Assembly: GCA_024226555.1 (NCBI GenBank)
Contig: JAAELO010000047.1
Location: forward strand, 1 to 64,000
From: Desulfobacterales bacterium
Lineage (GTDB): Bacteria > Desulfobacterota > Desulfobacteria > Desulfobacterales > JAAELO01
DNA: 64,000 nt
Direction of reading: 5' to 3'
The position numbers and the translations under genes are program-made. Under the pieces are notes generated by a model that worked only from the letters and a program-made list of their open reading frames with translations, was not told the DNA's origin and searched no databases. Numbering within the stretch: the stretch's first letter is position 1; each line of letters opens with the position of its first letter. Positions 14,473-19,398 of the stretch are shown here, in pieces.

Positions 14473-16149
14473 TTATTTGTTTTGATTTTCTGCACGAAGA
14501 TCTTTTCTTAATATTTTCCCAACATTTGTTTTTGGAAGTTCATCCCTGAATTCTATTTCAGTTGGAAGTTTATATTTTGCGAGTCTTTCACCACAGTATG
14601 ATATTAACTCTTCCTGGGTTGCAGTTTTTCCTTCCTTCATCACAACAAAAACCTTAATTGCTTCTCCCCTTGTAGGATGTGGAATACCAATTGCGCATGC
14701 TTCCTGAACCAGAGGATGTTCATAAAGAGCTTCATCAATATCTCTTGGATAAACATTATATCCACCTGAGAGAATTAAATCTTTTTTTCTATCAACAATG
14801 AAAAAGTATCCCTCTTCATCCATCTTGGCGATATCACCCGTATAAAGCCAGCCATCCCTTAAAGTATCTTCTGTAGCATCCGGCTTGTTATGATAACCCT
14901 TCATAACCTGAGGCCCTTTAACACAAAGTTCTCCCGGTTCACCAACCGGAACCTCATCAACGCCATTATCAAGATCAACTATCTTACACTCTGTATCAGC
15001 AACTGGTAATCCGATACTACCTATTTTCCACTTACCACCAAATGGGTTTATATGGGTAACAGGACATGATTCTGTAAGACCAAACCCTTCAGAAACAATA
15101 ACACCTGTTTTGCTTTCAAAATCTTTTATTATTTCAAGTGGAAGGGGGGCACTTCCTGAAAAGCAACCTTTAACAAAAGAAAGATCTGTTTTATCAATAT
15201 CAGGATGGTTAAGCATTCCAATATACATAGTTGGAACCAGAGGAACAAAACTTGGCTTAAATTTACGCATTGTATCAATTAATGGATCTGGTTGAGGCTT
15301 TGGAACAAGAACCAGATTCCAGCCTTTGGAGATCGCATAATTCATTGAAGTTGATAATCCAAAAATATGGAAAAAAGGAAGGGCTCCCATCATAACCTCA
15401 TCACCATCTTTGAATTCAGGAAACCATGCATTTACCTGCTGAACCTGCTTACTCAGGTTGCTGTGGGTAAGCATCACGCCTTTAGAGACTCCAGTGGTTC
15501 CTCCAGTATACTGATACATTGCAAGATCATCAAAATCAACATTAACTTCAGGAGGGTTTGGAGGATACTTTGCAATAATATCTTTCCATCTATATAAATT
15601 ATCTGCACTCTTAACATCTGCAGCAAGACCTTTTTTCTTACCTACTAAAGGAAACAAAATATTTTTTGGGAAGGGTAGATAGTCTCCTATTGAGGAGATA
15701 ACAATCTCCTTAATTCCGGTTTTTTCTCTTAAATCGATCATTCTGTTACCGAGTAGATCAAGTGTAATCAGTACTTTAGCTCCGGAATCATTGAACTGGT
15801 GCTCAAGCTCTTTATCAGTATATAAAGGGTTGTTCATAACTGTAACTGCACCTATTTTCATAAGAGCGTAATATGAAACAACACATGGAATAGTGTTAGG
15901 CAAAAGAATTGCAACACTATCTCCTTTTTTAATACCCATCTCATTTAAAAAAGTTGCAAATATGTTTACCATTTCAAGTAGTTTTGCATAGGTCAATGTA
16001 TAACCCTGAAATGTTAAAGCCGTTTTACCCGGGTATTTACTGGCTGAAAGTTCCAGAAGCTTTGGTAAACAGGATTTTTTATAATCCAGTTTTGATTGCA
16101 CACCTTCTGCATAATTTGAAAGCCATGGCTTGTCCTGATAGTTAGTCAC
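14473..16149 (-). CDS. long-chain acyl-CoA ligase (AMP-forming), copy 1
   Basis: 558 residues, full length for FadD-type enzymes. AMP-binding motif YTGGTTGVSKGVMLTH; A5 region SEGFGLTESCPVTH; hinge motif GWLYTGDIAKMDEEGYFFIVDR; and the catalytic-lysine end motif PKTNVGKILRKDLR. The enzyme activates fatty or related carboxylic acids through an acyl-adenylate. The start is GTG with AAAGGAG at the proper distance. It is the downstream member of a tandem pair of close paralogues, sharing long identical blocks. An organic-acid or fatty-acid growth substrate is plausible; chain length cannot be read from sequence. Confidence 0.92.
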   Translation of the reverse strand: MTNYQDKPWLSNYAEGVQSKLDYKKSCLPKLLELSASKYPGKTALTFQGYTLTYAKLLEMVNIFATFLNEMGIKKGDSVAILLPNTIPCVVSYYALMKIGAVTVMNNPLYTDKELEHQFNDSGAKVLITLDLLGNRMIDLREKTGIKEIVISSIGDYLPFPKNILFPLVGKKKGLAADVKSADNLYRWKDIIAKYPPNPPEVNVDFDDLAMYQYTGGTTGVSKGVMLTHSNLSKQVQQVNAWFPEFKDGDEVMMGALPFFHIFGLSTSMNYAISKGWNLVLVPKPQPDPLIDTMRKFKPSFVPLVPTMYIGMLNHPDIDKTDLSFVKGCFSGSAPLPLEIIKDFESKTGVIVSEGFGLTESCPVTHINPFGGKWKIGSIGLPVADTECKIVDLDNGVDEVPVGEPGELCVKGPQVMKGYHNKPDATEDTLRDGWLYTGDIAKMDEEGYFFIVDRKKDLILSGGYNVYPRDIDEALYEHPLVQEACAIGIPHPTRGEAIKVFVVMKEGKTATQEELISYCGERLAKYKLPTEIEFRDELPKTNVGKILRKDLRAENQNK

Positions 16150-16223
16150 AAATTTTCTCCTTTCGGATCGACTATCTGTTTAATAAATTATACAGATAGC
16201 ATGATTGTTAAAAAGAATTATAA

Positions 16224-17903
16224 TTATCTTTTCTGTTTCTCTTCAGCCCGAAGATCTTTTCTAAGTATTTTACCAACATTGGTCTTTGGAAGTTCATCTC
16301 TAAATTCAATTTCAGTAGGGAGTTTATACTTTGCAAGTTTTTCACTGCAATACTTGATAAGTTCTTCTGAAGTTGTAGTTTTTCCTTCTTTCATAACAAC
16401 AAAGACCTTTATTGACTCCCCCCTTGTTTCGTGTGGAACTCCGATTGCGCATGCTTCCTGAACCAGAGGATGCTCATAAAGAGCCTCATCAATATCTCTT
16501 GGATAAACATTATATCCACCTGAAAGAATCATATCTTTTTTTCTGTCTACAATAAAAAAGTAACCTTCCTCATCCATTCTCGCGATATCACCTGTATACA
16601 ACCAGCCATCTCTTAATGTTTCAGCTGTTGCTCCGGGATTATTATAATATCCTTTCATAACCTGGGGGCCTTTAACACAGAGTTCGCCAATCTCTCCCAC
16701 CGGAACTTCTTCATTACCAGTATCAATATCAACAATTTTAGACTCTGTATCTGAAATTGGAATACCAATACTTCCAACCTTCCACTTACCACCAAATGGA
16801 TTTACATGGGTTACAGGGCAGGATTCTGTCATACCAAAACCCTCAGATATTATAACACCTGTTTTTTCTTCAAACTCTTTGATTACTTCAAGCGGGAGAG
16901 GTGCGCTTCCTGAAAAACATCCTTTAATACATGACAGATCTGTTTTATCTATATCGGGGTGATTTAACATTCCAACATACATAGTTGGTACAAGGGGAGC
17001 AAAACTAGGTTTGAATTTTTGCATTGTTTCAAGCAGTGGTCCAGGTTGTGGTTTTGGAACCAGAACATTTTCCCAGCCCATACAAATAGCAAAATTCATA
17101 GAAGTGGATAAACCAAATATATGAAAAAAAGGAAGGGCTCCCAGCATTACTTCTTTACCTGAATTAAAGTCGTTAAACCATCCCAGGACCTGCTGAACCT
17201 GTTTACTCAAATTGCTGTGTGTAAGCATCACACCTTTTGAAACACCAGTTGTTCCACCGGTATACTGATACATTGCAACATCATTAAAATCCACTGAGAC
17301 TTCAGAAGGATTAGGTGAATAATTTGAGATAACCTCTTTCCATCTGTACACGTCATCAGCAGTTTTTACAGATGCAGCAAGACCTTTTTTCTTTCCAACC
17401 AAAGGGAATAAAAGGTTTTTAGGGAAAGGAAGATAATCACCTATGGAGGTTACAACAATCTCTTTAATACTTGTTTCCGGCCTTAAGTCGATCATACGAT
17501 TCGCCAAAAGGTCCAGAGTTATTAAAATCTTTGAACCCGAATCATTGAACTGGTGCTTAAGTTCCTTATCAGTATATAGGGGGTTATTCATAACTACGAT
17601 ACCACCTATCTTAAGAACAGCATAGTATGCTGCAACACAGGGAATAGTATTAGGTAAAAGAATAGATACACTATCACCTTTTTTGATCCCTTTATCATTT
17701 AGGAAAGTTGCAAATCGGTTAACCATTTCAAGTAGTTTAGCAAAGGTTATCTTGTAACCCTGAAATGTAAGTGCTGTTGATTCGGGAGATTTACTTGCTG
17801 AAATTTCCAGATATTCACTTATTAATGTCTCTTGATAGTCAAGTTCTGGCTTAACACCAGTTGCGTAGCATGAAAGCCATGGTTTTTCCTGATACTTAGT
17901 CAC
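16224..17903 (-). CDS. long-chain acyl-CoA ligase (AMP-forming), copy 2
   Basis: 559 residues, closely similar along its whole length to the adjacent ligase: same N-terminal pattern (PWLSCYATGVKPELDY), YTGGTTGVSKGVMLTH, GWLYTGDIARMDEEGYFF and PKTNVGKILRKDLR. GTG start preceded by AAGGGAG, the same arrangement as its paralogue. The two are separated by 74 bp and both read leftwards, so they are a tandem duplication, probably cotranscribed. Differences cluster in the N-terminal domain and in the PDxxTDL-type linker segments, so substrate ranges may differ. Confidence 0.92.
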   Translation of the reverse strand: MTKYQEKPWLSCYATGVKPELDYQETLISEYLEISASKSPESTALTFQGYKITFAKLLEMVNRFATFLNDKGIKKGDSVSILLPNTIPCVAAYYAVLKIGGIVVMNNPLYTDKELKHQFNDSGSKILITLDLLANRMIDLRPETSIKEIVVTSIGDYLPFPKNLLFPLVGKKKGLAASVKTADDVYRWKEVISNYSPNPSEVSVDFNDVAMYQYTGGTTGVSKGVMLTHSNLSKQVQQVLGWFNDFNSGKEVMLGALPFFHIFGLSTSMNFAICMGWENVLVPKPQPGPLLETMQKFKPSFAPLVPTMYVGMLNHPDIDKTDLSCIKGCFSGSAPLPLEVIKEFEEKTGVIISEGFGMTESCPVTHVNPFGGKWKVGSIGIPISDTESKIVDIDTGNEEVPVGEIGELCVKGPQVMKGYYNNPGATAETLRDGWLYTGDIARMDEEGYFFIVDRKKDMILSGGYNVYPRDIDEALYEHPLVQEACAIGVPHETRGESIKVFVVMKEGKTTTSEELIKYCSEKLAKYKLPTEIEFRDELPKTNVGKILRKDLRAEEKQKR

Positions 17904-18064: not shown

Positions 18065-18093
18065 AACCACACCTGGAAAAGACTGGTGTGGTT
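18065..18093. terminator. hairpin terminator after the B12-controlled gene
   Basis: The 9-bp stem AACCACACC/GGTGTGGTT with an 11-nt loop. On the reverse strand it is followed by TTTTCTTTTTTAAA, giving a leftward terminator for the gene at 18135-18389. Confidence 0.75.
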
Positions 18094-18134: not shown

Positions 18135-18389
18135 CTAACAAATACGCATCTCTTTATCGGTTAATTGCAACGAGCCATCACTACCAAATTTAGCTAATTG
18201 ACATTTAATCGAGTGGTTTCCTTTTACGACAAGATTAAACCACGCTTCATGCAGATCTGATCTGCCGGAAGACTCTGAAACAAATTCAATTGTGTCATCT
18301 GTACCAATCATTTTAGCAATGTTTTTAGAATTAAGATTCAAATTTGTTGGTTCATTACCGGTGATGTATAGAATTAAACCTCTTTTCAT
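18135..18389 (-). CDS. 84-residue protein under cobalamin riboswitch control
   Basis: A small cytosolic protein starting MKRGLILYITGNEPTNLNL and ending LTDKEMRIC; one Cys at the C-terminus and one in the middle (IKCQL). No signal peptide, no membrane helix and no known domain recognised. RBS GGGAGAG precedes the ATG. It is the only gene downstream of a complete cobalamin riboswitch and its terminator, and is followed by its own terminator, so it forms a single-gene B12-repressed unit. By analogy with other B12-regulated genes it may concern corrinoid uptake or use, or replace a B12-dependent step, but this is inference only. Confidence 0.75.
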   Translation of the reverse strand: MKRGLILYITGNEPTNLNLNSKNIAKMIGTDDTIEFVSESSGRSDLHEAWFNLVVKGNHSIKCQLAKFGSDGSLQLTDKEMRIC

Positions 18390-18435
18390 AACTTCTCTCC
18401 CTGTTCTAAATAAGTTAAGAATGGAGTTAAAAGGC

Positions 18436-18482
18436 TCAAAAAAACAAAAAGCCCTTCAATTCCAACTATAAACTGAAGAGCT
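18436..18482 (-). terminator. riboswitch expression-platform terminator
   Basis: On the reverse strand, AGCTCTTCAGTT and AATTGAAGGGCT form a 12-bp stem with two wobble pairs and a 9-nt loop, followed by TTTTTGTTTTTTT. It lies between the cobalamin aptamer and the start codon, where a transcription-termination switch would be expected. Confidence 0.8.
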
Positions 18483-18552
18483 GCACCCGTTGTTCTTGAC
18501 TCTTATGTATTGTGCCTTCTATTCCTAAATCCCGGGAACAAGACAAAGATTA

Positions 18553-18682
18553 TGGCAGGTCTTCTGACTTTTGGCTAAACTTACTAACTGCGCCTTCCCA
18601 TTAATTATAACAGTGGCATTTACAGCTTTCATAACCAATTACAGCGGCGGGACCGTTCCCGATTTTCACGGGGATTCCCTTT
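18553..18682 (-). promoter_or_regulatory. cobalamin (AdoCbl-type) riboswitch
   Basis: Reading leftwards, the conserved core blocks appear in order: GGGAATCCCCGTGAAAATC, GGGAACGGTCCCGCCGCTGTAA, ATGCCACTG, GGGAAGGCGCAG, and finally AGTCAGAAGACCTGCC (the B12 box). All the invariant parts of the cobalamin aptamer are present. It should repress downstream transcription when cobalamin is abundant, through the terminator at 18436-18482. Confidence 0.95.
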
Positions 18683-18752
18683 TAATTTCATTCTATAAAA
18701 ACTGAAAAAATATTTTCGAGATAAGAATGAAACACCATAAACAATAGTAAAA

Positions 18753-18781
18753 AATCTATTAGAAATAAATGTCTGTGTCAA
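18753..18781 (-). promoter_or_regulatory. promoter of the cobalamin riboswitch transcript
   Basis: On the reverse strand: TTGACA (18781-18776), a 17-bp spacer, then TAGATT (18758-18753), placed about 70 bp upstream of the aptamer. The -35 is consensus and the -10 is weak. Confidence 0.55.
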
Positions 18782-18811
18782 CCAGATATCTCTGTAAGGT
18801 TGATAATAAAT

Positions 18812-18940
18812 GGGAACCTCTAATAATTAGGATTTTGATTGAAATACAAGGCTGAGAAAAAAACAACGGGTTGATTTTACTACAGTTAATTTTTTCAAAA
18901 ACGCAGTAGTTCGGTCAAAAGACAGTTCTTAGAGATTCCC
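18812..18940 (+). mobile_element. GGGAACC-family MITE
   Basis: Full-length 129-bp copy with exact AAAT duplications (18808-18811 and 18941-18944). Interior variant: ATACAAGGCTGAGAAAAAAAC and CAGTAGTTCGGTCAAAAGAC, the same sub-group as the copies at 50166 and 54041. Confidence 0.93.
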
Positions 18941-19069
18941 AAATATTAAACTGAGGATAGTATTCCATCATACATTTCATACAAAAAACAAAGGAGTATC
19001 ACTTACAAAATATTTTAATAAAAAATCAACTTTCAAATAATTTCATAATATCCAATCAAATTGTTTATT

Positions 19070-19085: not shown

Positions 19086-19147
19086 AGTTTACAAAAACAG
19101 ATCTTTTATTTAATGATAATGCGAATCAGTTTTAACAAATATTTATA

Positions 19148-19275
19148 GGGAACCTCTAATAATTTTTATTTTGATGGAATACAAGGCATTTCTGAAAATA
19201 ACGAACCGATTTTATTACAGTTTTTTTTTAGAAATAACACAGTATTTTGCAAAAGAGGGGTTATTAAAGATAATC
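19148..19275 (+). mobile_element. GGGAACC-family MITE
   Basis: Copy with an intact left end and a mutated right end (AAAGATAATC), still flanked on both sides by TATA (19144-19147 and 19276-19279). The interior matches the AAAATAACGAACCG sub-group. A further half-terminus (AGTACCTCTAATA) follows at 19281-19293. Confidence 0.85.
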
Positions 19276-19398
19276 TATAGAGTACCTCTAATAGTATGTT
19301 TATGCTCTTTACATTCCAGACTTAGGTTCTGTAACAGTAAATATGATAATTCACTGTTATTTGTGGTTCATAACTCAAAAGAAAGGATGCTGAACTAA

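Follow-up and report, generated by a model that had tools for sequence, protein, structure and literature searches.

A new family of small proteins in the B12 regulon of Desulfobacterota

In the survey of delta-proteobacterial B12 elements by Rodionov and colleagues (PMC545781), the targets given in the part of the text accessible to us are cbiK-cbiL, btuCDF, other B12 transport loci and nrdDG, and the gene described below is not mentioned in that part. The elements presented there comprise a complete aptamer, a promoter and a terminator, as does the riboswitch analysed here; however, their targets are known, whereas the latter controls an unnamed protein family. A similar case, as portrayed in the available section of another report (PMC8941943), is provided by the BtuH-like accessory B12-binding proteins of Bacteroidetes, in which a once-unknown accessory protein stands among B12 transport genes. 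BtuH, however, belongs to another family and another phylum, while the present family appears to be cytoplasmic and its corrinoid binding is putative. The class II small chelatases (CbiX/CbiXS, CfbA and SirB; PF01903 and PF06180) are comparable in that their fold is weakly similar to that predicted for the family and that cbiK is often adjacent to the family gene, and we place the family in the same pathway. Nevertheless, these chelatases have about 120 residues or more, compared with 84 in the family protein, and carry an HG motif and a second histidine, both of which are missing from the family, as is any profile similarity. No description of the family was found in a large library of open literature, an absence that is no proof that nobody has seen it.

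The gene lies in a stretch of 64,000 nucleotides (hereafter the window), formed by positions 1 to 64,000 of contig JAAELO010000047.1 of a Desulfobacterales bacterium (GenBank assembly GCA_024226555.1), and its features are listed in Table 1. The search against Rfam revealed a full cobalamin riboswitch on the minus strand (RF00174, 113.9 bits, E 8.9e-28, with a gathering threshold of 31.5 bits), and the aptamer covers all model positions from 1 to 189. The intrinsic terminator between the aptamer and the gene exceeded 200 of 200 shuffled sequences in stability, while for the terminator behind the gene an equally good fold was obtained in one of 200 shuffles. The sequence AGGGAG is found upstream of the ATG codon. 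The second terminator makes the unit monocistronic, and the next gene on the same strand, acyl-CoA synthetase-like by eye, starts beyond it at position 17903. The earlier note on this DNA had described a complete cobalamin aptamer with a promoter and a terminator platform, followed by a small gene with its own terminator, and all of these elements are present, as judged from Rfam, the consensus match and the shuffle comparison. Its description of the gene as the lone target is correct for this locus in the window genome, but not for many other genomes.

Table 1. Features of the riboswitch locus in the window and targets of the other cobalamin riboswitches of the same genome
Feature	Position	Strand	Remarks
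Candidate promoter	18753..18781	-	Consensus match 10/12; functional proof not implied
Promoter elements: -35 TTGACA, -10 TAGATT	18781-18776 (-35); 18758-18753 (-10)	-	Sigma-70-like, 17-nt spacer
Cobalamin riboswitch aptamer, RF00174	18537..18754	-	One of six in the home genome
Intrinsic terminator, expression platform	18450..18482	-	13-bp stem, then T tract TTTTTGTTTTTTT
Shine-Dalgarno-like AGGGAGAG	18395..18402	-	5 nt 5' of the ATG
84-codon gene	18135..18389	-	ATG at 18389, end at 18135; new Desulfobacterota protein family
Intrinsic terminator 3' of the gene	18065..18093	-	9-bp stem, 11-nt loop, T-rich tail
Riboswitch before cbiK-btuCDF-cbiA	C821
Tandem riboswitch pair before two TonB receptors, with btuFCD divergent	C47, ~77 kb
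Riboswitch before DUF3450-ExbBD	C303
Riboswitch before ThiC-like gene and cobT	C622

Window positions 18806-18946 and 19139-19290, immediately 5' of the riboswitch promoter, carry a repeat of some 130 nt that has inverted ends (GGGAACCTCTAA...TTAGAGATTCCC). It looks like a MITE-type element, since about 40 near-full copies with 85-98% identity are present in the genome (46 matches in all). Two neighbouring genes on the minus strand, at window positions 14473-17903, are both acyl-CoA synthetase-like and closely resemble each other, apparently as a result of tandem duplication.

The home genome contains six cobalamin riboswitches, and the five others all serve known B12 functions. The ThiC-like gene and cobT under one of them (C622, L180 5459-7979) form a candidate unit for the synthesis of the benzimidazole lower ligand; the ThiC-like protein scores above the ThiC cut-offs and below the cut-off of the BzaB exception model. 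Repeatedly, a single transcription unit was found to be preceded by cobalamin riboswitches in tandem, at L010, L048, L050, L055 and L139, as well as in the home genome (C47:76854-77522).

No relative of the 84-residue protein was found in Pfam, NCBIfam or the PDB, and a comparison of 14 family members with protein-family models at E up to 1 yielded weak matches to unrelated families only. A scan of genome contigs with the window protein alone likewise returned no relatives, an alignment of relatives being needed. Among 57 other genomes of the order, 13 relatives were identified, each a single-copy protein of about 84-87 residues with 30-46% identity to the window protein. Profile searches of sampled genomes detected the family in 52 of 291 from the class and in 48 of 395 from the phylum Desulfobacterota, the latter count taking in a few weak matches with E from 1e-4 to 1e-3, of which at least one (L163) is false. 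The named family records are Desulfobacterales, Desulfobacteraceae or Deltaproteobacteria MAGs and one contig binned as Dehalococcoidia (MNYE01000081.1). The latter may be misbinned, since the family is otherwise absent from the 250 other genomes of that phylum searched; in all 251 genomes, only the source contig and two partial matches (E about 1e-4) were obtained, and the partial matches were rejected as open frames resembling response regulators by eye. No family member was found in viral contigs and plasmids. The family is unnamed and new, and it is spread across one bacterial phylum. The earlier note had called the protein an orphan, which is wrong given a phylum-wide family of 81-87 residues.

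Most members have 81-87 residues and are preceded by strong ribosome-binding sites. Conservation is highest at M1, K2, G4, I6, Y8, an aromatic AW motif near position 50 and G57. Two motifs of the window's class, GHFD and Cys63, are not conserved across the phylum and are missing in whole subgroups, and the histidine of GHFD is missing in the window protein as well. Several of five divergent members (L054, L055, L056, L057 and L058, E from 1e-13 to 6e-5), all with the riboswitch still present, are devoid of the RLCG-type C-terminus.

A cobalamin riboswitch was found upstream on the same strand at 101 of about 106 distinct family loci, a count that covers nearly all fetched family loci. At 88 of these, the window included, it lies 22-429 nt 5' of the start codon, and at 13 further loci it is located farther up the same gene run, where cbiK or a TonB receptor frequently intervenes. 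At L096 the riboswitch is a fragment truncated by the end of the contig, and none was found at four loci: L015/L105 (contig end), L047 (a fragment without the N-terminus), and L087 and L137 (preceded by BtuF/CbiZ). Twelve of the 13 relatives from the order have the riboswitch on the same strand, and the thirteenth is at a contig end. In each of three batches of 20 loci the riboswitch was present at 19; in one of them the twentieth was L163, an internal stretch of an open frame of at least 335 residues, which was discarded as a false profile match and, having no cobalamin riboswitch, serves as a negative control. Even L165-L167, found only at E of about 2e-4 to 5e-4, have the riboswitch. An intrinsic terminator is located between the aptamer and the gene in 58 of the 72 leaders scanned (one leader with negative spacing was left out), and in many leaders a AGCCCTTCAA...TTGAAGGGCT stem is close to that of the window terminator.

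Per-genome counts gave 200 cobalamin riboswitches in 40 gene-bearing genomes, i.e., about five per genome, and approximately one in five of the cobalamin riboswitches of carrier genomes serves the family gene. The probability of finding one by chance on the same strand within the distance given above for the family loci was estimated at about 3 in 10,000 per locus. Since the riboswitch is shared by 101 of about 106 family loci, its association with the gene is not due to chance, and membership of the family in the B12 regulon is near certain. The check named in the earlier note, i.e., whether homologues are also preceded by cobalamin riboswitches, was overwhelmingly positive.

Recognised B12 genes are located beside the family gene at 53 of 83 loci in a hand tally, with neighbour identities confirmed with Pfam for representatives, while at more than one third of these loci no such gene is adjacent. 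The neighbours include CbiK (31 loci), TonB receptors (15), BtuC (11), BtuD (9), BtuF (7) and BtuF-CbiZ (5), and in one subgroup (L173) the start of the family gene overlaps the stop of cbiK. On contig MNYE01000081.1 (L087, 333-815), a short MeaB fragment corresponding only to positions 86-138 of PF03308 precedes the family gene in frame. Behind the gene lie cbiZ and the gene for a membrane protein, maybe COG3366-like, with no Pfam family.

In cobalamin riboswitches with a terminator platform, the ligand-bound aptamer favours termination, and for this reason the gene would be switched off with B12 and expressed at B12 shortage. When adenosylcobalamin is plentiful, the aptamer would bind its ligand and the terminator at 18482-18450 would form, silencing the gene; when B12 is scarce, transcription would read through, and the 84-residue protein would be produced together with the rest of the cell's B12 regulon, namely cbiK-btuCDF-cbiA, the TonB receptors, ExbBD and the ThiC-like/cobT unit. 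The protein probably stays in the cytoplasm, since no signal sequence is visible. Genes for corrinoid uptake, salvage or handling are by far the commonest company of the family gene, which suggests a role in these processes. Taken together, the protein is probably a B12-repressed small soluble protein serving corrinoid (B12) acquisition or intracellular corrinoid/cobalt handling, although B12 regulation indicates the timing and not the biochemical action of the family protein. The B12-related function put forward in the earlier note is well supported by the riboswitch linkage of homologues and by the dN/dS values given below, while the kind of function suggested here is inferred.

Two AlphaFold2 models, built for different queries from overlapping alignments (38 and 29 rows), reached pLDDT values of 87 and 90 and agree on a beta-alpha-beta-alpha-beta-beta arrangement. 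Foldseek gave no significant match for either model (no E below 0.08). When the best 1000 Foldseek chains per model were re-aligned with VIA-align, SirB, CfbA, CbiX or CbiXS led both lists, chelatases occupying the top 8 rows for one model and 14 of the top 18 for the other. These matches are weak, with Z of 4.3-5.0 over 66-76 residues, values that can come from a common arrangement alone; the best was to SirB with cobalt (Z 5.0, 3.1 A over 76 residues). Comparison of the family with the CbiX and CbiK alignments by hhalign gave probabilities under 1%, the same as for controls, and the window protein matched none of PF01903, PF06180 and the NCBIfam chelatase models. In chelatases, one histidine follows strand 1 (the HG motif) and a second follows strand 3, but the family has no conserved histidine in either segment; its only conserved histidine, that of GHFD, does not occur in the window protein or in other classes. 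Formal membership in the class II chelatases was rejected on profile comparison and catalytic residues, and the idea of a metal site formed by the GHFD histidine and Cys63 was weakened, as neither is kept across the phylum. The family was not filed under the chelatases because of the weak Z, the non-significant Foldseek results, the lack of hhalign similarity and the missing catalytic histidines; from the models, a chelatase ancestry may be regarded as a lead. More speculatively, the protein could be an accessory or carrier rather than an enzyme, with a corrinoid or cobalt bound on a chelatase-like alpha/beta fold devoid of the metal-insertion histidines. The specific version in which a cut-down chelatase fold without metal insertion acts as a corrinoid-binding carrier under B12 starvation, holding or passing corrinoids inside the cell, is a tentative possibility.

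Alternatively, the protein could be a dedicated partner of CbiK in de novo B12 synthesis, either as a pseudo-chelatase subunit or as a donor of the cobalt to be inserted into sirohydrochlorin, as might be proposed from the frequency of cbiK, which exceeds that of all other neighbours (31 of 83 loci), the gene overlap in L173 and the weak fold likeness to sirohydrochlorin chelatases. However, among the 291 genomes of the class the family occurs independently of both CbiK, detected in 27 of 52 carriers and 143 of 239 non-carriers (Fisher p=0.35), and CbiC, detected in 27 of 52 and 123 of 239, respectively (p=1.0). Neither gene is present in 24 carriers, complete genomes included, such as G077 with a single contig and 99% completeness; incompleteness of the MAGs may explain part of these absences, but several such carriers are 96-100% complete. 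In addition, the CbiK proteins of these operons have a signal sequence, while the small protein shows none. Since CbiK and CbiC occur independently of the family and about half of the carriers are without one or the other, de novo synthesis is not required, and the function of the family is not tied to it. A main role as cobalt-insertion partner is therefore unlikely and was set aside, the carriers being without CbiK/CbiC about as often as non-carriers.

A B12-sparing or repair factor, made at cofactor scarcity for B12-dependent enzymes such as methylmalonyl-CoA mutase, methionine synthase or ribonucleotide reductase, appears quite unlikely. Riboswitches of this group also control B12-independent isoenzymes (NrdDG, according to the accessible part of PMC545781), and the L087 gene stands in frame behind a MeaB fragment, but no B12-dependent or substitute enzyme recurs near the family gene, the recurring neighbours being uptake, salvage and synthesis genes. 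It is more doubtful still that the protein is a small trans-acting regulator tuning the B12 regulon or TonB/ABC uptake via protein-protein contact. Its very small size, its consistently stand-alone nature, the rule of one copy per genome and, in the window genome, transcription separate from the uptake genes would fit such a regulator; however, no DNA- or RNA-binding motif was recognised, and the conserved positions are mostly glycines of the fold type and aromatic residues.

The dN/dS between related family members is about 0.05-0.44, mostly 0.1-0.25, and well below 1 in every pair where it could be computed, which shows that the 84-codon frame is translated and under purifying selection. The reading as a leader ORF or spurious frame behind the riboswitch, suggested by its shortness and the lack of a database family, is refuted by these values and by the phylum-wide conservation of length (81-87 aa) and start position, the strong ribosome-binding sites and the confident structure models, and has a negligible probability. 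The earlier note had tied the failure of its proposal to a lack of riboswitches elsewhere combined with an untranslated frame; the opposite was found on both counts, i.e., riboswitch linkage and dN/dS below 1.

Returning to the proposed role in corrinoid acquisition or handling, the small size, solubility and confident models of the family make binding and knockout tests easy. Riboswitch linkage can also validate very remote family members, as the switch is present even at E of about 1e-4. If the carrier reading is true, the protein would represent a type of B12-handling protein inside the cell that has so far not been described in bacteria. The tight and broad linkage to the riboswitch means that the protein does something these anaerobes need at B12 shortage, and that the pathway of B12 uptake and handling, as now drawn for these bacteria, misses a part.
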